The position numbers and the translations under genes are program-made. Positions 3,668 through 14,283 of a stretch of 64,000 nucleotides of DNA are shown here, piece by piece. The notes under the pieces are model-generated. The model made no database searches. It saw nothing but the letters and a program-made list of their open reading frames with translations, and was not told where the DNA came from. The DNA comes from Candidatus Zixiibacteriota bacterium. Its GTDB lineage: Bacteria; Zixibacteria; MSB-5A5; GN15; FEB-12. The stretch's first letter is position 1. Every line of letters begins with the position of its first letter. The DNA lies in assembly GCA_019038695.1 (NCBI GenBank), contig JAHOYZ010000007.1:248001-312000 (forward strand), given 5' to 3'.

Positions 3668-6082
3668 CTACTCAAACTCAATATCGTACGGCATTCTAGC
3701 CAGGATTATCCCCTCCCCAACCGGGAACAACATGTCGGACACGGCCTCGACCGGGTCAGCCTCCCCGTCAAACAGTTTGGCCATAGATGTGAACAAAGAA
3801 AGACCGGGAAAGGCAAACCATGATCGACGCTGAGGGTAAACTTCTACTCTATAGTCAGTGAGTCCCAGTGCATTGGCAGTGTAATCAAGGGCGCGTCGCA
3901 ACCCACCGAGTTCATCGACCAATCCAATCTCAAGCGCCTCTCGGCCGGTCCACACCCGACCCTGCGAGAGAGCATCCGTCGAATCAATAGACAAGCCACG
4001 ACTCTCAGCGACCAGCCGAACGAAATGATTGTAGAATGCTCCCAGTTGGTCCCGGTAGCGCGCACGCTCTTCGTCGGTGAAGGGTCGAATGTTGCTGAGC
4101 ATACCAGCGAACTTTCCCCGTGTGTACATCTCTTTTCCCAGACCGATTTTTTTATGGAGCCCGCTCAAGTCAGCCTTGCCGCCATAGATACCAATCGAGC
4201 CTGTGACAGACCCCGGACTGGCGAACAGACGACGACCCGGTGTCGAGAAATAGTATCCTGCCGAGGCGGTCACGTTGGCCATCGATACGACCAATGATTT
4301 ATGTCGGGAAAGTTCGTCAACGCTGTGATAAATACGCTCTCCGGCCATCGCCAGTCCACCCGGAGAGTTGATACGCCAGACCACGCCCTTAACATCCGGT
4401 TGGCATTGGACACTTTCGAGCGCTGCTGCCATTGTACCGGGAGTTACACGTCGACCGCTATTGAATGGGCTGGACGACCTACGACTGTCTGTCACTTCGC
4501 CTTCGGCTACTACTATTGCAAGTACGGGAAGACGAGGCCATCCATCGTTTAACAATGTGTCGGTTTGATAGCGCCGAAAGCTAATCTCGGTCATGGAACG
4601 GAGAATATCGTCATGCATCTTGTCTCGATAACTCAGGCCGTCGACGAGGCCAAGCGACAACGCCTCCTCGGATGTGAACGGTCCCAGGTCAATCATGGAC
4701 TTCACCGAATCCGGCGACAGACCACGACCCTCCGCTATTCCAATTACAAACTGATCATAAAGATCATCCAACAGTCGGTTGGTGGCCTCGCAACCTTCCT
4801 CACTAGCTGTCTTGTGAGTGTATGCTTCAGCTGCCTGTTTGTATTTGCCAAATCGAACCAGATCAGCTTTAATCCCCAGTTTCTCCATTGTCCCGGCATA
4901 GAAGGTCAATTCTGCCCTGAGCCCGATGAGGTTCAACTGGCTCACCGGCGGGATAAGTATCAGGTTGGCTACACTCGCTACATAGTAGCCAATGTTATTG
5001 GGGCGGCTAATATGGCAGATCACCTCTTTTCCCTGCCGACGGAAATATGACAGCGCATCGCGTAGTTCCTGGGCCTGTCCAAATCCAAGTGACAGGCTGT
5101 TCAGACCAATAACCATCTCACCAATTGAATGGTCATCAGCAGCCCGATAGATGTTCAACAGGACAGACCAAAACGGTGTTTTCTGACGTCCGATTACTGG
5201 CCGAACGGGATTCTCTTCCGGCCGCCCCGAAACTGCCAAGCGTAATCTTCTTTTCCGAGGGGGAATAATCGATGCTTGACGTTGCGAGCTAGCTCCCATG
5301 TACACAATGGAGCGGGTGTGGTCCCCTGCCCTGGTGAAATCACTCTGTCCACCAGTGAAGTATTTCCGTAAATTGACGCGAAACCCCAACTGGAAAGCTC
5401 CATCAGAATCAATTTGACCTTCGACAAACAGACCCGGCACCGGAACAAGCTCAGCATGGTAGCTGTAATGGGCATCCTTGAAACTCTGGCGTGTGGAGAG
5501 GAAAGCATCAACAGCCACTGTCAGCTTGCCTGGTAGCGGTCGATAGGCCAATGAGTATCGCTGTTGAGTCTCGGTCCGATCGCCGTCGAGGCGACCCCGA
5601 TTAAGGTTGGAGAACACTGCCGCCCAACTAAACGGTCCCCCTGGTCGACCTGACACAGACATGTCCCAGAAATGGCGTTTATGGTATCCTGTCGGTCCCT
5701 CCTTATAATACCGATACGCTCCTCCCACACACAGCGAACGTCCCAGAGGAAAGCCGGAGGCGAAGATATGTTCCTGATAATTACGCTCATTGGGATTGTA
5801 GAGTCGTCTGTAGGCTGTGGACAAACCCTTATTGGCAACAACCGTGCCCCAACTCCTGGTAAATGAACCGTCATCGTGTTGAGCCATCAACTGATACTCA
5901 ACGGCATCAAACCAACCCAGCATAGATGGATTACACCAGACTGCCTCCGACCCATAGACAGTTGCTGCTGGATGATAATGAAAAATACCTGTCGGTGTAG
6001 CTATCCGGGTTGCTGATAGCGACCCGACGGAGAGACCACCAAGCACAACAAGCCAGAGTATTACCCGGCGACGGATGGTCAT
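3668..6082 (-). CDS. sppA: SppA-type signal peptide peptidase (S49) with an N-terminal outer-membrane-like region
   Basis: About 804 residues, longer than E. coli SppA (about 618). It begins with a signal peptide. Residues to about 250 (using the ATG at 6088 for numbering) resemble a PorV/UPF0164-like beta-barrel start, with VYGSEAVWCNPSMLGW. Two S49 protease modules follow. The general-base Lys is in GKYKQAAEAY (about K417) and the nucleophile Ser in NVTASAGYYFSTPG (about S609), with SVTGSIGIYG after it: the Lys/Ser dyad split between halves as in SppA67K. SppA degrades cleaved signal peptides in the membrane; here the enzyme is probably exported or membrane-linked. The ATG at 6088 abuts the GGAGGAGGA site, whereas the ATG at 6082 has normal spacing, so I chose 6082. 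It follows the DUF4097-like gene by 2 bp. Confidence 0.85.
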   Translation of the reverse strand: MTIRRRVILWLVVLGGLSVGSLSATRIATPTGIFHYHPAATVYGSEAVWCNPSMLGWFDAVEYQLMAQHDDGSFTRSWGTVVANKGLSTAYRRLYNPNERNYQEHIFASGFPLGRSLCVGGAYRYYKEGPTGYHKRHFWDMSVSGRPGGPFSWAAVFSNLNRGRLDGDRTETQQRYSLAYRPLPGKLTVAVDAFLSTRQSFKDAHYSYHAELVPVPGLFVEGQIDSDGAFQLGFRVNLRKYFTGGQSDFTRAGDHTRSIVYMGASSQRQASIIPPRKRRLRLAVSGRPEENPVRPVIGRQKTPFWSVLLNIYRAADDHSIGEMVIGLNSLSLGFGQAQELRDALSYFRRQGKEVICHISRPNNIGYYVASVANLILIPPVSQLNLIGLRAELTFYAGTMEKLGIKADLVRFGKYKQAAEAYTHKTASEEGCEATNRLLDDLYDQFVIGIAEGRGLSPDSVKSMIDLGPFTSEEALSLGLVDGLSYRDKMHDDILRSMTEISFRRYQTDTLLNDGWPRLPVLAIVVAEGEVTDSRRSSSPFNSGRRVTPGTMAAALESVQCQPDVKGVVWRINSPGGLAMAGERIYHSVDELSRHKSLVVSMANVTASAGYYFSTPGRRLFASPGSVTGSIGIYGGKADLSGLHKKIGLGKEMYTRGKFAGMLSNIRPFTDEERARYRDQLGAFYNHFVRLVAESRGLSIDSTDALSQGRVWTGREALEIGLVDELGGLRRALDYTANALGLTDYRVEVYPQRRSWFAFPGLSLFTSMAKLFDGEADPVEAVSDMLFPVGEGIILARMPYDIEFE

Positions 6083-6084
6083 TC

Positions 6085-7146
6085 TCATTCCTCCTCCATG
6101 TCGATGCCACGGACAAAAATGTTGCCGTCACCTCTGATTAAACCGTTGATACCTCCTGCACCGCTACCGGCAACGAGGCTTAACCTGTCCCGTTGGATGA
6201 GATCGGCCAGAAACCGAAGCCCACTCACCTCAATCTTACCCTCGTCACCGACCGATAGTGATAACGTCGCCGACAGGTCGTCTGGCACGCTAATGTCAAT
6301 ATCTTCAAATCTATTGCTGACTACAATCTGTTCTCCGGTCATGTCGGCGATCTCTATGACAACAGGAGCTGACCTGCCGCGGATGATATTGCGGTCACCA
6401 CGCGGACGGAAATCGATCAATTCGATACGACCAAAGCTGTTCTTGACGCTTATTTGACCGTCAAAACCGTCAATACGAATATCTCCTCCCTGATTGCGGA
6501 ATACAGCCTGATCGTCAGGGCTGTAAATCTCACGAGCCTCAAGAGTAGAATTGGATGTTTCGACTGAGACTTCGCCGGAGATGCGGGAGATCGTCAGACG
6601 CCGATTGGCAGTTGTCAGATCAACCTGTCCAGTCACATCTGAAACCTGCAGACGGCCCAACGAAGAAGGTACTACGAATCCTGAGAACGGTCCGACAGCA
6701 TTCAGATCGAAGTAAGTGGCATTGACCTCAAGAAATGAGTTCACGGGGACAGAAATCTCGATCTCGATAGTGGTTGCTTCATCCGTCTCCCATGGTGGTG
6801 GGTTCGGCGCTCGTAATTGGAGACGAACTCCACCGGCGACCCGATCCAGATCAACTGCGACCATGTCGATATGATCAATCGCTCGCGATCGGTCGGAGGA
6901 CCTGGACTTCAAGAAATACTCCAGCGAGACCTTTTGTTCCGGCACCGTGCGTATGCGAATGCTGCCGGTCATAGTTGCCGCCGACTGAATCACGACCCTG
7001 TTGCCTTCCTCAAGGCCGATTACTCTGGACAGCAATCCGGTCGAGAACATACCGTTCTCGTCCTGTGTGATTTTCTGAGCCGATCCCGATCCGGCCATAA
7101 TAAGGAGGCCGGTGAGGACAAGTAACACGATTCCTGTTCTTTGCAT
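6085..7146 (-). CDS. Secreted DUF4097-like beta-helical protein
   Basis: A 353-residue protein with a clear N-terminal signal peptide ending near GSGSAQ (about residue 24). The rest consists of short beta-strand repeats, for example VDLTTANRRLTISRISGEV and the region IRIDGFDGQISVKNSFGRIE, typical of the DUF4097/DUF2807-type putative adhesin fold, a right-handed beta-helix or solenoid. No catalytic motif is visible and the exact role is unknown. It lies 3 bp after the TrmH-family gene and 2 bp before sppA, so the three minus-strand genes form one transcription unit. It is probably periplasmic or bound to the cell surface. Confidence 0.65.
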   Translation of the reverse strand: MQRTGIVLLVLTGLLIMAGSGSAQKITQDENGMFSTGLLSRVIGLEEGNRVVIQSAATMTGSIRIRTVPEQKVSLEYFLKSRSSDRSRAIDHIDMVAVDLDRVAGGVRLQLRAPNPPPWETDEATTIEIEISVPVNSFLEVNATYFDLNAVGPFSGFVVPSSLGRLQVSDVTGQVDLTTANRRLTISRISGEVSVETSNSTLEAREIYSPDDQAVFRNQGGDIRIDGFDGQISVKNSFGRIELIDFRPRGDRNIIRGRSAPVVIEIADMTGEQIVVSNRFEDIDISVPDDLSATLSLSVGDEGKIEVSGLRFLADLIQRDRLSLVAGSGAGGINGLIRGDGNIFVRGIDMEEE

Positions 7147-7149
7147 TGT

Positions 7150-7944
7150 CTACCCGCTCACAAAGCTATCATAAACTTGTTTCATAACTATAGACCCCGC
7201 CACTGCGGCGTTAAGCGACTCCACGCGGCGAGAATGCCCGATACGCAGGATCACCGAGGCCAGAGATCGCATCTCATCTGACAATCCTTCCGCCTCAGAA
7301 CCGACAGCCATGAGCCGTATCTGAGCTCCGCGTAATTGCTGGTAGCATGATCGCCAGCTTCGACCTTCAAGTCCAGTCGCCACAACCGTGCCGCTCCTCT
7401 GTTTTACAAACTGTTCCAGCTTGTCCATTTCGACTTTTGCAATCGGTAAGCCAAAAATGGCGCCCATTGACGAACGGACTACTTTCGGAGAATAAGGCTC
7501 TACACAACTACCGCACAATATTGTAAGGTCAAAGTCAAAGGCCATGGCCGAACGCAGCAGCGTGCCAAGATTGCCGGGGTCCGAAATACTGTCACACACC
7601 AGTATGTTACGCATTTTAGGTGTATAAAGTTCATTGAGTCCATGGGCCGGCAAGTCAAAGAGACCGACCAGCCCCTGGGGGGTTCTGGTGTCCGTTAGAA
7701 CTTCCAGTTGACGCGCCGGGATCTGTACCAGTTTGGTCTGTTTTCTACCGAAGCGTTCCACGAGGCTCTTGCCTCGGTTTGGTAACAGGGACGGAGCAAA
7801 ATAGATGGCGCGGGGATAAAAATGGTGCCGCAAGGATTCTTCCAGAAGACGAACTCCCTCGGCCAGAAAGACGCCCTGCTTGCGTCGTCCCTTCCTGGTC
7901 AGCAAGGCTCGTAGATTTTTTAATTCCGTCTGGGACAGCGGCAT
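7150..7944 (-). CDS. TrmH/SpoU-family RNA 2'-O-methyltransferase
   Basis: A 264-residue protein. The N-terminal substrate-binding part (about residues 10-100) has the L30e-like RNA-binding pattern with RKGRRKQGVFLAEGVRLLEE. The C-terminal SPOUT domain contains the three SpoU motifs: SDPGNLGTLLRSA (motif 1), VGSEAEGLSDE (motif 2) and SRRVESLNAAVAGSIV (motif 3), which form the knotted SAM-binding site. The family methylates ribose 2'-OH in 23S rRNA or tRNA; the exact target cannot be told. GAGGAT precedes the ATG. It is the first gene of the operon with the DUF4097-like gene and sppA, and is divergent from the patatin gene, with only 60 bp between them for both promoters. Confidence 0.85.
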   Translation of the reverse strand: MPLSQTELKNLRALLTRKGRRKQGVFLAEGVRLLEESLRHHFYPRAIYFAPSLLPNRGKSLVERFGRKQTKLVQIPARQLEVLTDTRTPQGLVGLFDLPAHGLNELYTPKMRNILVCDSISDPGNLGTLLRSAMAFDFDLTILCGSCVEPYSPKVVRSSMGAIFGLPIAKVEMDKLEQFVKQRSGTVVATGLEGRSWRSCYQQLRGAQIRLMAVGSEAEGLSDEMRSLASVILRIGHSRRVESLNAAVAGSIVMKQVYDSFVSG

Positions 7945-8004: not shown

Positions 8005-10617
8005 TTGCAAGTGAAAACTGTCGCTTTACTACTGTTGTGTTCCTGGATACTGGCTTCGGTATCCGCAGGCGCGGAGGAACGTTTTGTAGTCGGTGGACTT
8101 GAGGAACGGTTTCCTTCTTGCGAAGAACCCTCCCGGGGCGTAGTGTTGGCTCTCTCGGGCGGGGGGGCGCGTGGATTGGCCACAATAGGCATACTGCGCG
8201 CACTCGAGGAGAAGGACATTGGTATCGCCGCTATCGCTGGCGCTTCCATGGGAGGGATAGTGGGTGGACTGTATGCTACCGGTTACACCGCTGAACAACT
8301 GACATCTATCGTACATAATCTTGATTTCGACGGTCTCTTCGGCAATGCTCCGGATCGCTCGACTATGTTCCAGACTAAACGGCGCGGACGTGGACGGGAT
8401 TTACTGACCCTTCGCTTTGACGGTTTTCTCCCCATAATTCCCCAGGCGCTGACTACCGGGCAGAAGCTAACCGAAATTCTAACCCGTTTGACGACTCGGG
8501 CTACCTATCGATCGGGCGGCGATTTCTCACAACTGCCAATCCCGTTCGCAACTGTCAGTTCAGATATGATTACTGGTGAGGAAGTCATCCTGGATCATGG
8601 TTCGCTGGCCGATGCTATGCGGGCGACTCTTGCTTTTCCCCTGGCCTTTACGGGCGTTGAGATCAATGGTCGTTTGTTGGTAGACGGTGGCATGGTCAAT
8701 CCCATGCCGGTAAACGTAGCCCGGTCTCTGTGTGATGTGCCGGTACTGGCCATAGCGATCAACACTTCCAGTCCCCTTCTTAAGCGTGATGAAATCGCGA
8801 CTCCAGTTGATATTGTAAACCAGGCGACTTCAATCATGACAAAAAGAGTGTTGCGTCAGGGGCTGGCGTCTGCCGATTTTGTAATCACACCGGTCGGGAA
8901 CAATATCCACTCGACCGACTTCAGGCTTAAGGACAGCATTATCGAGTTAGGATATCAGGCTGGTCTGATGGCCGTCGATAGCATTCTGAGTTTGCTCAGC
9001 CAACGCCGTGATACCACCCGTTACACTTTCAGTGTAGTTCGTCTGGACACCGGCTTATCGCCCCATCGGGCGCAGATTGAAGCGATATTGCTGCAACAAC
9101 AATTGAACCGGCCGGAGTTCCTGGCTGCCCTTAAGTCCCTTCGGGAAGAACTCGGCTTTTTCCAGCTTGAGGTCGGTATTTCCACGGACTCTAACTCTAC
9201 TGGAAAGCACACTTGTGTGTCGCTGAGCGGATTTGAATGCCTGGACCCGGCGCGGGTGAAGTTCTCGTTTGTAGGCAATCAGGTTTTCAGTGACTCCGTA
9301 CTTGTTTCGCAGATGGAGCTTACTGATTCCGCGCTTACTCCTTTGAGACTGGATCGTGTTTTACACTCGGCGATGAATCGCTACCGGGCAGACGGGTATG
9401 ATCTGGCAGACATTCGTAGTGTTAATGTGGATCCGGTCTCGAACTCTGCTGCGGCAACAATTGATGAGGCTGTTATCAGGAGGGTCGAAATAGCCGGCCA
9501 TGGCCGGACCAAGGCATGGTTCATTCGATCGTTGTTCCCGATGAAGGCAGGCGAGCCGTATTCAACGAGACGGGCAGCTCAGGGTATTAACAACATCTAT
9601 GGTACCGATCTATTCTATCGGGTGTCTGCTGATCTTGTCCCTGAGGATAGCGGGGCGGTGGTCAGAATCGTTGTCCGGGAGAAAAAGCCATTTCAGATGC
9701 GGCTTGGTTGGCACTGGGATGATGAATACCAGTCCGAGGAGTTCATTGAACTGCTGGATGACAACATCGGTGGGGTGGGTCTGGAACTGCTGGGTCACGC
9801 TCGATACTCCCCGGATCGGCAACACTACTTTTTGAATTTCAAGGCAGATCGTATCTTTTCCAGTTACATGACCGGAGCCATACGTTTTTACCATACGCAA
9901 CTTGATCGTCATCTTTATGATGGCAACGATTCGCTGACCGGCAAGCACCAGGAACTCAAACTTGGAACGGAATTTCGTATCGGGCGACAGATTTCGCGTT
10001 TGGGGACAGTAGCGATGGCTCTGGTTATCGAAGAGATTGATTATTTCCAGGAAAACAGGGAGATAGATGAAGAACTGGGGCTGCGCATTTTCAAACTCGA
10101 ATCGCTGGTCGAGAACTTTGATCGCATTCCTTTTCCACACCGAGGCAAGAAGCACTTTTTCGAACTACAGTTTGCCGGACGGCTACTTGGGGGGGATGTT
10201 GACTATACTCGTTTCTTCACGTCAATCGAAGCCTATTTTCCGCTGGGGAAGTACCTGAACTACCACCCACGCCTTGGGGTGGGGATTTCACGCTCAGGGT
10301 TACCGATGTCCGAACGATTCTATATGGGGGGGTTGCGGTCGTTTCATGGTTACCGCAGCGGCCAACTCAGCGGCGACAAGATGTTCCTGCTCAGCCAGCA
10401 ACTTCGGATCAAGCTACCGCTCTGGCTCTATCTCAGTGGCTACTTTGATCTGGGTAATATCTATGGCAGCACCGACGAAATAAAGCTCTCCCATCTGCGA
10501 CGAGCTTTCGGAGTGTGCCTGTCGCTCGACACCCCCCTCGGACCTGCTGAAATTGGATACGGCGCTACGGAAGATGACCTCGACCGAATTTACATCCGGG
10601 TGGGGTTCGAGTTTTAG
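8005..10617 (+). CDS. Patatin-like phospholipase fused to POTRA and Omp85 barrel (PlpD type)
   Basis: About 870 residues with an N-terminal signal peptide. The patatin domain (about 40-330) has the oxyanion loop SGGGARG (51-57), the nucleophile elbow GASMGG (Ser81) and the catalytic Asp in VDGGMVNP (about D227), so the Ser-Asp dyad is intact. After a linker come a POTRA-like part (about 420-560) and a C-terminal Omp85/BamA-type 16-strand barrel (about 560-870) ending in the aromatic F-E-F. This matches PlpD-type Vd autotransporters, which place a lipase at the outer membrane; secretion or release of the lipase is not shown here. The open frame starts with TTG (8005); GTG at 8011 is an alternative that keeps the whole signal peptide. 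Confidence 0.88.
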   Translation: MQVKTVALLLLCSWILASVSAGAEERFVVGGLEERFPSCEEPSRGVVLALSGGGARGLATIGILRALEEKDIGIAAIAGASMGGIVGGLYATGYTAEQLTSIVHNLDFDGLFGNAPDRSTMFQTKRRGRGRDLLTLRFDGFLPIIPQALTTGQKLTEILTRLTTRATYRSGGDFSQLPIPFATVSSDMITGEEVILDHGSLADAMRATLAFPLAFTGVEINGRLLVDGGMVNPMPVNVARSLCDVPVLAIAINTSSPLLKRDEIATPVDIVNQATSIMTKRVLRQGLASADFVITPVGNNIHSTDFRLKDSIIELGYQAGLMAVDSILSLLSQRRDTTRYTFSVVRLDTGLSPHRAQIEAILLQQQLNRPEFLAALKSLREELGFFQLEVGISTDSNSTGKHTCVSLSGFECLDPARVKFSFVGNQVFSDSVLVSQMELTDSALTPLRLDRVLHSAMNRYRADGYDLADIRSVNVDPVSNSAAATIDEAVIRRVEIAGHGRTKAWFIRSLFPMKAGEPYSTRRAAQGINNIYGTDLFYRVSADLVPEDSGAVVRIVVREKKPFQMRLGWHWDDEYQSEEFIELLDDNIGGVGLELLGHARYSPDRQHYFLNFKADRIFSSYMTGAIRFYHTQLDRHLYDGNDSLTGKHQELKLGTEFRIGRQISRLGTVAMALVIEEIDYFQENREIDEELGLRIFKLESLVENFDRIPFPHRGKKHFFELQFAGRLLGGDVDYTRFFTSIEAYFPLGKYLNYHPRLGVGISRSGLPMSERFYMGGLRSFHGYRSGQLSGDKMFLLSQQLRIKLPLWLYLSGYFDLGNIYGSTDEIKLSHLRRAFGVCLSLDTPLGPAEIGYGATEDDLDRIYIRVGFEF

Positions 10618-10729: not shown

Positions 10730-11692
10730 CTAGAACCGATAGGCGGCGCTGACGCGGAAGGTAGCATCCAGATCGCCATGATGAAGATAAGCCAGGTCAA
10801 TGATAACCTTGCCAACATCAACTCCGGCCCCGGCTGTAAAACGCCCGATATCAAATCCTGCCCGTCCGAAAACTTTCTCCCGGTAGCCAACCTCCCAGCC
10901 ATAATGGGTATCAAGCGAGAACGACCCTGACGAGTACTGCGCCGACTCCTTCAGTCCTTCGAATTTGATATCCCCGCTGAAGAGGAAACGGCCGGTGAAA
11001 TCCCAGCGGGAGAATGCCAGTGCAACGCCGGGTTTGATCGTTGGGTAAATCGACTCGGTGTGGGAACCGGAATCGAATGTCTCTCCTGAGTAACGGATGA
11101 AACCGGTGCTGATGTCGGTTACCATCAAGCCCAGATCGGTGTGTCGAGTGAGTTGGTACAACAGGCCTGCATCCAGTGTTAGCCCCTTGCCGGATTCGGT
11201 CCCGATGTCTCGATAGATGATCTTGGCTGTCAGGCCAAAATCGAGTCGTTGTCCCAATCTGCCCGCCAGAGCCGCCGACAACAGGAAATCGCCGTGCGAC
11301 TCTTCGGATACAGCGTATTGCCGCCCAAACTCATTGAGCTGAGTAATTTTAATTCCCCCGCCTCCCAAATAGTACAGGTAGAAGCCAAAGGCTCGCACTG
11401 TTGAACGGCCTTCTGATCGGGCGTCGATGTACGCCACGTAATCATGGTTCAGCAGAGAGCCAAACGTCTCGGCGTGCATAGCCACCACCTGCCGCCCCTG
11501 CAGTCGGTTCATGCCGGCCGGGTTCCAGTAGGCTGAGGTGCCATCAAACGGTCCGGCCACAACAGCCCCGCCAAGAGCTAAACCTCGTCCGCCCACACCG
11601 AGTGAGAAAGCGTCACCGGCATACTTGGCCGCCTGGACATGACCGCCGTATATCAACAGCAGTCCAATGAATATGTATCGACAAAGGGTCAT
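10730..11692 (-). CDS. PorV/PorQ-family outer-membrane protein
   Basis: A beta-barrel protein of about 320 residues. A signal peptide (LCRYIFIGLLLIYGGHVQA) is followed by the family's N-terminal signature: GDAFSLGVGGRGLALGGAVV and then the segment DGTSAYWNPAGMNRL. Amphipathic strands run to a terminal aromatic residue (SAAYRF). PorV and PorQ belong to the FadL-like/UPF0164 group; in Bacteroidetes some act in type IX secretion, but most FCB members are of unknown role. The open frame extends to 11725; I prefer the ATG at 11692 because it puts a short basic stretch directly before the hydrophobic core. No strong ribosome-binding site decides this. The gene stands alone, convergent with the patatin gene. 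Confidence 0.75.
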   Translation of the reverse strand: MTLCRYIFIGLLLIYGGHVQAAKYAGDAFSLGVGGRGLALGGAVVAGPFDGTSAYWNPAGMNRLQGRQVVAMHAETFGSLLNHDYVAYIDARSEGRSTVRAFGFYLYYLGGGGIKITQLNEFGRQYAVSEESHGDFLLSAALAGRLGQRLDFGLTAKIIYRDIGTESGKGLTLDAGLLYQLTRHTDLGLMVTDISTGFIRYSGETFDSGSHTESIYPTIKPGVALAFSRWDFTGRFLFSGDIKFEGLKESAQYSSGSFSLDTHYGWEVGYREKVFGRAGFDIGRFTAGAGVDVGKVIIDLAYLHHGDLDATFRVSAAYRF

Positions 11693-11807
11693 AATTTGAG
11701 TTTCACTCTTGGCCATTATACACAAATGACCGTCGCGATGCCACTATACTTGCTATCGGCATTCCCCTGGTTTGGGACGTCCATTAAGTACGTTATTCGG
11801 TAATCGA

Positions 11808-12711: not shown

Positions 12712-14283
12712 TTACTTCGCAATATCAACGTTTTCATAGAATACTAACCGTCTTCCCTCGTAGTCAAACAGGACTTGAAAATTCTCCAGAATCATGTTGC
12801 CGATATTGCCGGCCAACTCCTCCGAGCCAGCCAATCCCAGCCCCTCTTCGGGTAACATTACACGCAGTGACTGTAGGGAAATCTCGCCAAACCGGAAGGT
12901 CGCCGCAAAGGCAGTTTTGCTGCCAATCGCCCCCCCGACGCCGCCCATACCCACCGGGTTGGTCTTAACATCGTCCAACACCTCTTCCAGATGATGTTTG
13001 TCCACAAAGTTGCGGTGCAGTATAAGACCAAAAGCGTTACCCAGATCAACAATGAACTCCCCCTTGATACCGTTGAGTTCTCCGGTGACAGAGGGAACCA
13101 GCATAGTCAGATTGAAATCCACCGCGATTCCTCCCGGTGGCAATTCAAAAGCCTGTGGATCAAAGACTGTGAGCGATGAGTCACGATAGTCAATCAGAAC
13201 CGGAAAGCGAGAGAGGAAATCATAGCCCAGCATACCTCCCAGCTCCTGCTTATGGGGCACTGAACGGACAAAGGCCGAGAGGTCCATCGAACCAGCGACC
13301 TGGGCATACAGAGTAAGAGCCCCGATTGAGATGGAGTCGGACCGCACCAACTGCACTTCTTCGTACCCCGCCATACCTACGACCGGCAGACTGCCCTCAA
13401 CAGGCAGGTTCAGGTCTGCAATGGTTGCAGTGTGAAATATATTGGCTGAAGCGCCGGAGTCGAGAATGAACCAGACCTTCTTTGTGCCATTAATCGTAGC
13501 AGGCAACCAGATATGACCGAGGCGATACTCAAATCCGATTCTAACCGATGCCGATGAATCGGCAAAGGAATAGTCAGCGACGGCACGAGCCGGCATCGAG
13601 AACACCGATTGGTCAATCTCGATGTTCAGCGTAATGCTGTCGGTCTCAAGCGATGTGAAGAGCGGAATATCTTCAAACGATGTGTGAACAAAATGTGGTA
13701 CAGCAACTCCGCCGACAAAGCGATAGTCACCCATCTGGGAGATCGACCTGAGGTTATCCAGTTTGCTGAACGAGTAGCGCCTCATGGCGTCGTCGGGATC
13801 AAAAAGAATCCGCACGGTGTCGTTGTTGAGTGGATAGAAAGCTACCTGATGATACTTCATGCCATCATATTCCAACTCGCCGAGGTCTTCGCAGGTTCCC
13901 TTCATCCGGTCCTTCAGAAGATAGGAGAAGGACTCAAAATAGATATTGGATAGCAGGGCGTCCTTCTCGTATCCCGTCAACTCCGAGACTCGTCCGTTGT
14001 GGTCCTGTTGCCAGGCCTGGTGTCCGTCATAAGCCTGAATTAGAACGACGCTGCCAATGGCAACTTCAAGATAGAGCCGGTCCGGCGCGGAAAATATCTC
14101 AACAAATCGCCCGGCCTGACCGTTGAGATTGATTGTCCCCTCGGCACGAAAGGAAGATATCCGTTGTAGCGAATCAAACGCCGTTTTTCCCCCGACTGAT
14201 TTGATAAACAGGGAGTCGAGATTCGTGGCTGATGCATCAGCGCTAATCAGGATGAATAAAGCTAGTACAAAACAACGGAACAT
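12712..14283 (-). CDS. Secreted LolA-like plus retropepsin-like protein
   Basis: A 523-residue protein with a signal peptide (about 1-19). Residues about 20-230 resemble the LolA/outer-membrane lipoprotein-sorting fold, with an opening like GGKTAFDSLQRISSFRAEG. Residues about 245-520 contain two retropepsin-like halves. The first has VWFILDSGASANIF, with the active-site Asp-Ser-Gly at 275-277. The second has EFIVDLGNAFGLIL (D413), where Leu replaces the usual Ser/Thr. A retropepsin needs two Asp loops, so either the second loop works with a variant triad or the protein dimerises through the first. Substrate unknown; probably periplasmic. A short stem-loop (about 12629-12650) follows the gene but lacks a T-run. 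Confidence 0.72.
   Translation of the reverse strand: MFRCFVLALFILISADASATNLDSLFIKSVGGKTAFDSLQRISSFRAEGTINLNGQAGRFVEIFSAPDRLYLEVAIGSVVLIQAYDGHQAWQQDHNGRVSELTGYEKDALLSNIYFESFSYLLKDRMKGTCEDLGELEYDGMKYHQVAFYPLNNDTVRILFDPDDAMRRYSFSKLDNLRSISQMGDYRFVGGVAVPHFVHTSFEDIPLFTSLETDSITLNIEIDQSVFSMPARAVADYSFADSSASVRIGFEYRLGHIWLPATINGTKKVWFILDSGASANIFHTATIADLNLPVEGSLPVVGMAGYEEVQLVRSDSISIGALTLYAQVAGSMDLSAFVRSVPHKQELGGMLGYDFLSRFPVLIDYRDSSLTVFDPQAFELPPGGIAVDFNLTMLVPSVTGELNGIKGEFIVDLGNAFGLILHRNFVDKHHLEEVLDDVKTNPVGMGGVGGAIGSKTAFAATFRFGEISLQSLRVMLPEEGLGLAGSEELAGNIGNMILENFQVLFDYEGRRLVFYENVDIAK

Follow-up and report, generated by a model that had tools for sequence, protein, structure and literature searches.

A barrel–SppA fusion conserved in Candidatus Zixibacteria predicts an SppA-type peptidase at the outer membrane

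Introduction

Until now, SppA has been seen as a protease of the inner membrane with the task of clearing signal peptides. The E. coli enzyme is held in the inner membrane by an N-terminal transmembrane anchor and forms a tetramer whose active site faces the periplasm (PMC9360617). Here we describe a protein in which an SppA peptidase is fused to an N-terminal β-barrel of the PorV/FadL type. It is encoded in a 64,000-nucleotide stretch of DNA (the window) from a metagenome-assembled genome of Candidatus Zixibacteria, and the relatives recovered by scanning a genome collection were mostly titled Zixiibacteriota. We found no description of such a fusion in the open-licence literature.

Both parts of the protein have described counterparts. 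Similar to E. coli SppA 67K (protease IV, family S49; 3bez and 3bf0), the fusion has tandem S49 halves with a Ser/Lys dyad at equivalent positions, but it carries a signal peptide and a 14-strand barrel where the E. coli protein has its inner-membrane segment. The barrel resembles PorV of type IX secretion (8gl6_F and 6h3i_F), which is also a 14-strand FadL-type barrel with an NPA-like motif; it differs from PorV in its sequence (12% identity, and no match to PorV sequence models), its shorter loops and the attached peptidase. FadL, TodX and TbuX, which are channels for hydrophobic compounds, share the fold and the NPA hatch motif, whereas the fusion barrel is about 180 residues smaller, 7–10% identical and joined to a peptidase, the likeness being one of fold. 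Barrels and proteases are also known to act together: the receptor FusA works with the periplasmic M16 protease FusC, and PorU–PorV likewise combines a barrel with a protease. These pairs resemble the fusion in this respect, but they draw on other barrel or protease families and are not covalently joined. BamG, a subunit of the Bacteroidota BAM, is another FadL-family barrel from an FCB phylum and has a non-transport role (PMC12611786); it lacks a peptidase, and it is similar to the fusion barrel in fold rather than in sequence.

Results

One reading frame encodes a barrel and two SppA halves

The preliminary description of this locus proposed that a protein of 804 residues joins a barrel-like N-terminal stretch to two SppA halves. 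The single open reading frame, the domain matches and a structural model of the barrel all bear this out (Table 1). We found one frame running from a barrel into SppA, of the kind encoded in the window (type A), in about 85 of the 132 genomes of the phylum, in 15 family-level groups. This count was made by hand from table rows. The contig scan that recovered the relatives relied on near-family motifs and has no bearing on the fusion beyond Zixibacteria. The occurrence of barrel and SppA in one protein is confirmed as real: the single frame in about 85 genomes rules out a sequencing or assembly artefact and a missed stop between two genes, the latter being excluded also by split forms that nest among fused ones in the trees described below.

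Two start codons are available to the gene. The first ATG (6088) forms an ATGA overlap with the stop of the upstream gene, and the second (6082) has the better Shine–Dalgarno spacing from a GGAGGAGGA stretch, as judged by eye. The predicted signal peptide coincides with the hydropathy maximum of the protein (residues 7–25) and with a helix at residues 2–16 of the AlphaFold2 model. Every segment beyond it is less hydrophobic. Because the signal peptide is followed by the barrel and by no equally hydrophobic segment, the fusion is predicted to lack an N-terminal anchor of the E. coli type.

Table 1. Coordinates, in the window, of the fusion gene, its domains and its neighbours
Feature	Position	Strand	Remarks
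Barrel–SppA fusion CDS	3668..6082	minus	804 aa from second ATG; 806 aa (3668–6088) from first ATG
Predicted signal peptide, residues 1–24	6011..6082	minus	Hydrophobic core, LSA end, without lipobox Cys
14-strand PorV/FadL-type barrel, residues 28–268	5279..6001	minus	Structure model, amphipathicity, homologous standalone proteins
First SppA (S49) half, residues ~301–490, with Lys415	4613..5182	minus	Domain profiles, E. coli alignment, model
Second SppA (S49) half, residues ~519–755, with Ser607	3818..4528	minus	Domain profiles, E. coli alignment, model
Lys415 codon, general base	4838..4840	minus	Equivalent to E. coli K209 by alignment; invariant in relatives
Ser607 codon, nucleophile	4262..4264	minus	Equivalent to E. 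coli S409 by alignment; invariant in relatives
DUF4097/toastrack-like secreted protein	6085..7146	minus	Upstream gene, 4-bp overlap with first fusion ATG
SpoU-family rRNA methyltransferase	7150..7944	minus	First gene of conserved run
Patatin + POTRA + Omp85 barrel protein	8005..10617	plus	Divergent neighbour, conserved in most loci

The N-terminal region is a barrel in fold but has no PorV or FadL profile match

AlphaFold2 modelled residues 1–293, from 29 sequences of the window and the genome collection, with a pLDDT of 87.1 and a pTM of 0.80. The model contains 14 long antiparallel strands between residues 61 and 265, with two short helices (residues 44–56) at the NPS/NPA motif, where the alternative posed at the outset was a soluble SppA extension without strands over residues 1–260. 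When the model was compared with solved structures (VIA-align), the best match was PorV (Z 23.9, rmsd 3.4, 247 residues). FadL, TodX and TbuX followed at Z of about 22–23 (20–23 with CymD included), then FadL-like chains from Bacteroidota BAM structures at 19.6–21.1 (9n2d_B at 21.1; 9hjm_F and 9hiv_F); the remaining porins scored about 16 and below. Consistent with a FadL/PorV fold, the NP of the hatch motif is kept in 56 of 57 type A sequences, the exception being a gap, and in all 18 sequences of the divergent type B described below. The strands also showed amphipathic alternation across the alignment, with a mean hydropathy difference of 2.38 against 1.16 ± 0.23 for shuffled controls (0 of 2,000 as high), although the strand limits were taken from the AlphaFold2 model and the test is only partly independent of it. 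Odd-numbered turns average 6.7 residues and even-numbered turns 2.8. This asymmetry matches the usual pattern and would place the long loops outside and both ends of the barrel in the periplasm.

Sequence searches did not assign the barrel to a PorV or FadL family. Residues 1–287 had no PorV or FadL match in Pfam or NCBIfam, the PorV models (including NF033709 and the T9SS equivalogs) did not match the 804-residue protein, and none of 30 barrel-domain members matched them at E 0.5. Pfam and NCBIfam yielded only scattered weak matches, several of them to barrel families, and a barrel profile searched against PDB sequences returned nothing useful. The label 'PorV-like' given earlier to the N-terminal region is thus supported for the fold but not for the sequence family.

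The SppA part retains a complete Lys/Ser dyad

A domain profile search identified two Peptidase_S49 stretches in the fusion (E 3e-64). Scores of 216 bits for PF01343 (cut-off 24.9) and 218 bits for TIGR00706, SppA_dom (cut-off 155), place it in family S49, and the SppA models together span most of residues 301–756. Its score for the SppA 67K equivalog model TIGR00705 was 270.5 bits, below the cut-off of 311.45, and we therefore file it as a two-half S49 peptidase rather than as an SppA 67K equivalog. In a phmmer search of solved structures, the fusion matched E. coli SppA at 1e-42. The resulting alignment pairs K415 and S607 with K209 and S409 (native numbering, 3bez chain sequence plus 25), which we take to be the dyad residues as numbered by Kim et al. 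2008 and Wang et al. 2008. These two residues were kept in 57 of 57 type A and 18 of 18 type B sequences, a few of these rows being overlapping copies of one gene; the dyad is intact, as first described.

A model of the full-length fusion (pLDDT 74.6, pTM 0.75) matched E. coli SppA with Z 33.3 (409 residues, across 276–751) and PorV with Z 24.4. Confidence in this monomer was low at residues 388–426, which include the Lys dyad region, and at 629–668 in the second half, so active-site geometry lies outside the scope of the model. We also found that the genome encodes a separate short SppA of 300 residues, whose N-terminal segment is hydrophobic. This makes it unlikely that the fusion is the sole signal-peptide peptidase of the cell.

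The locus is conserved across the phylum

The conserved gene order is a patatin–Omp85 gene on the opposite strand, the SpoU methylase, the DUF4097-like gene and barrel–SppA. We observed that the patatin, POTRA and Omp85 protein of the window (8005–10617) has a PlpD-like layout. The preliminary description held that the fusion is co-transcribed with a secreted DUF4097-like protein. The overlapping frames and the phylum-wide synteny suggest that the two genes are indeed co-transcribed, but the DUF4097 name found no match in the window's own copy; the profile matched 7 of 20 homologues of this gene, and a LiaG model reached E 0.004 in the window's copy.

Directly downstream of the fusion, many families have a pair of M16 peptidase genes. 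Loci at which the pair follows a barrel or barrel–SppA gene include L043, L044, L045, L046, L048, L049, L055 and L064. In most class-level loci, the first copy has HxxEH and the second lacks it, and in family f4 neither copy has it; within the window's own family, we did not see the pair after the fusion. Loci L055 and L064 gave rise to the idea that the pair replaces a lost SppA half, which is ruled out because the pair also lies beside intact fusions elsewhere.

The barrel is a separable module, and the fusion was probably lost or split repeatedly

Family f4 and two genera of the window's family have a barrel alone (about 280 residues) at the same locus, where the SppA half is gone. These homologous standalone proteins carry their own signal peptide. 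In genomes G123 and G124, barrel and SppA are two adjacent genes (L051 and L052). On the barrel tree, well-supported branches force at least five changes to place the standalone rows among the fused ones, and standalone barrels L066 and L067 adjoin the window's fusion with support of 98/98. The split SppA copies adjoin a fused copy on the SppA tree (100/96). The barrel is a separable module, and its fusion to SppA is an old feature that the phylum has conserved. In the sampled trees, which have no outgroup root, the fused form seems to be the older one, with several later losses or splits. Because one whole family keeps the barrel, without SppA, beside the DUF4097-like gene, the barrel probably serves a purpose of its own in addition to any anchoring.

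A second barrel–SppA fusion occurs in genomes without the first

A divergent barrel–SppA protein, type B (L068–L070, L072, L073 and L133–L140), forms a single clade on both the barrel and the SppA trees, and we found no conserved neighbour at its loci. It occurs in 19 genomes of families f1, f4, f11, f15 and f17. All of these lack the type A fusion, and type B is absent from all 97 genomes that show a type A SppA match. Thus no genome has both, against 14 expected if the types were independent, an expectation that ignores kinship among the genomes. Independent contrasts usually gave three concordant, no discordant and two uninformative comparisons, too few for significance, and loss of SppA was exactly associated with presence of type B at the genome level, over few independent events. 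Some high-quality genomes, such as both members of family f7, have neither type. The case that types A and B have equivalent functions, and that a cell retains one barrel–SppA protein, is good but not conclusive. That type B replaces type A suggests selection for the combination rather than for either half alone.

Proposed function and alternatives

We favour the reading, with a probability of roughly 0.6, that the fusion is an active, periplasm-facing Ser/Lys peptidase of the SppA type that is anchored in the outer membrane and clears peptides there. The unusual location raised in the preliminary description is strongly suggested by prediction, with a signal peptide and 14-strand barrel in place of the segment that ties E. 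coli SppA to the inner membrane. The protein would be exported by Sec, its signal peptide cleaved and its barrel inserted by BAM. With an even number of strands and the longer odd-numbered loops outside, both barrel ends would be periplasmic, and a linker of about 35 residues would suspend the SppA unit, assembled as the usual tetramer, in the periplasm below the outer membrane. Since the barrel ends are predicted to face the periplasm, the peptidase would occupy the same compartment as E. coli SppA and reach it from the opposite membrane, the barrel substituting for the N-terminal transmembrane anchor. Its substrates would most likely be short or unfolded peptides cut near the outer membrane, namely pieces of exported proteins and of those in the outer membrane itself. 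Where it occurs, the M16 pair would hand on products to the fused SppA, and conventional work would be left to the separate short SppA of inner-membrane type. The barrel may act as an anchor only or also as a passage for peptides or lipids. The simplest function would be to clear peptides at the outer membrane, and a new role in the turnover of outer-membrane or exported peptides, as first proposed, is plausible. If this is true, proteolysis is covalently anchored on the periplasmic side of the outer membrane across a whole phylum, and the fusion offers a concrete handle on the role of FadL-type barrels without known cargo in the FCB group.

A more elaborate version can be put forward only tentatively: the protein would represent a new class of outer-membrane proteolytic station, whose barrel, with a possible lateral gate, passes peptides between the membrane or the outside and the periplasmic SppA. 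The M16 pair and the DUF4097-like protein would assist, and each cell would keep one version as the A and B lineages replace each other.

We consider it rather unlikely that the barrel serves as an accessory component of a protein machine in the outer membrane, as BamG does for BAM and PorV for type IX secretion, with SppA providing quality control of stalled or misfolded cargo. The nearest folds do include PorV and the FadL-like BAM subunits, and the patatin–Omp85 gene is a conserved neighbour. BamG itself belongs to the FadL family and is conserved as a BAM subunit in six of the seven other FCB phyla (PMC12611786). The host genome also encodes many PorV-family proteins and an SprA-type translocon homologue that scores over the cut-off, with 506.9 bits over its frame (G000:C29:4241–8233; L106–L108). 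A type IX-like context thus exists in the host genome, but no gene ties it to the fusion locus: we saw no BamD, canonical BamA or type IX gene adjoining the fusion, the barrel has no sequence match to PorV-type models, and likeness of fold alone cannot demonstrate a partner.

By analogy with FusA–FusC, the fusion might instead be an uptake module, in which hydrophobic or peptide nutrients enter through a FadL-type barrel and are digested by SppA, together with the M16 pair at loci that have it. The FadL-type fold with its conserved N-terminal NPS/NPA hatch motif and the M16 genes downstream in many families would fit this scheme. However, the barrel is a small one of about 240 residues, compared with about 420 in FadL, and has short loops, and the conserved run contains no TonB-type receptor or transporter, which leaves nutrient uptake a doubtful explanation. 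That residues 1–260 are a soluble or inner-membrane extension of SppA is highly improbable: the region in the window's protein has no Pfam or NCBIfam match, but the confident 14-strand model, the PorV/FadL fold and the amphipathic strands rule out a soluble extension, and homologues exist as separate proteins with signal peptides.

Other observations

Three further proteins were noted. Near the fusion, the window encodes a separate PorV/PorQ-family protein (10730–11725), with an E value of 4.6e-31 for PorVQ2 and 89 bits for PorV_fam (cut-off 90). An exported protein of 523 residues (12712–14283) has a DSGA and a DLG motif in its second half and resembles retropepsin-type aspartyl proteases by eye. 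Elsewhere in the same genome, a PorV-family protein of 990 residues (G000:C39:38041–41013; L144:542–3514) contains an insertion of about 600–700 residues between its NPAGL motif and the barrel strands, which by eye is propeller-like and possibly LysM-like. The same split match, with profile positions 2–40 followed by 40–324 in one frame of 790–1,000 residues, was found in most of the other genomes searched.
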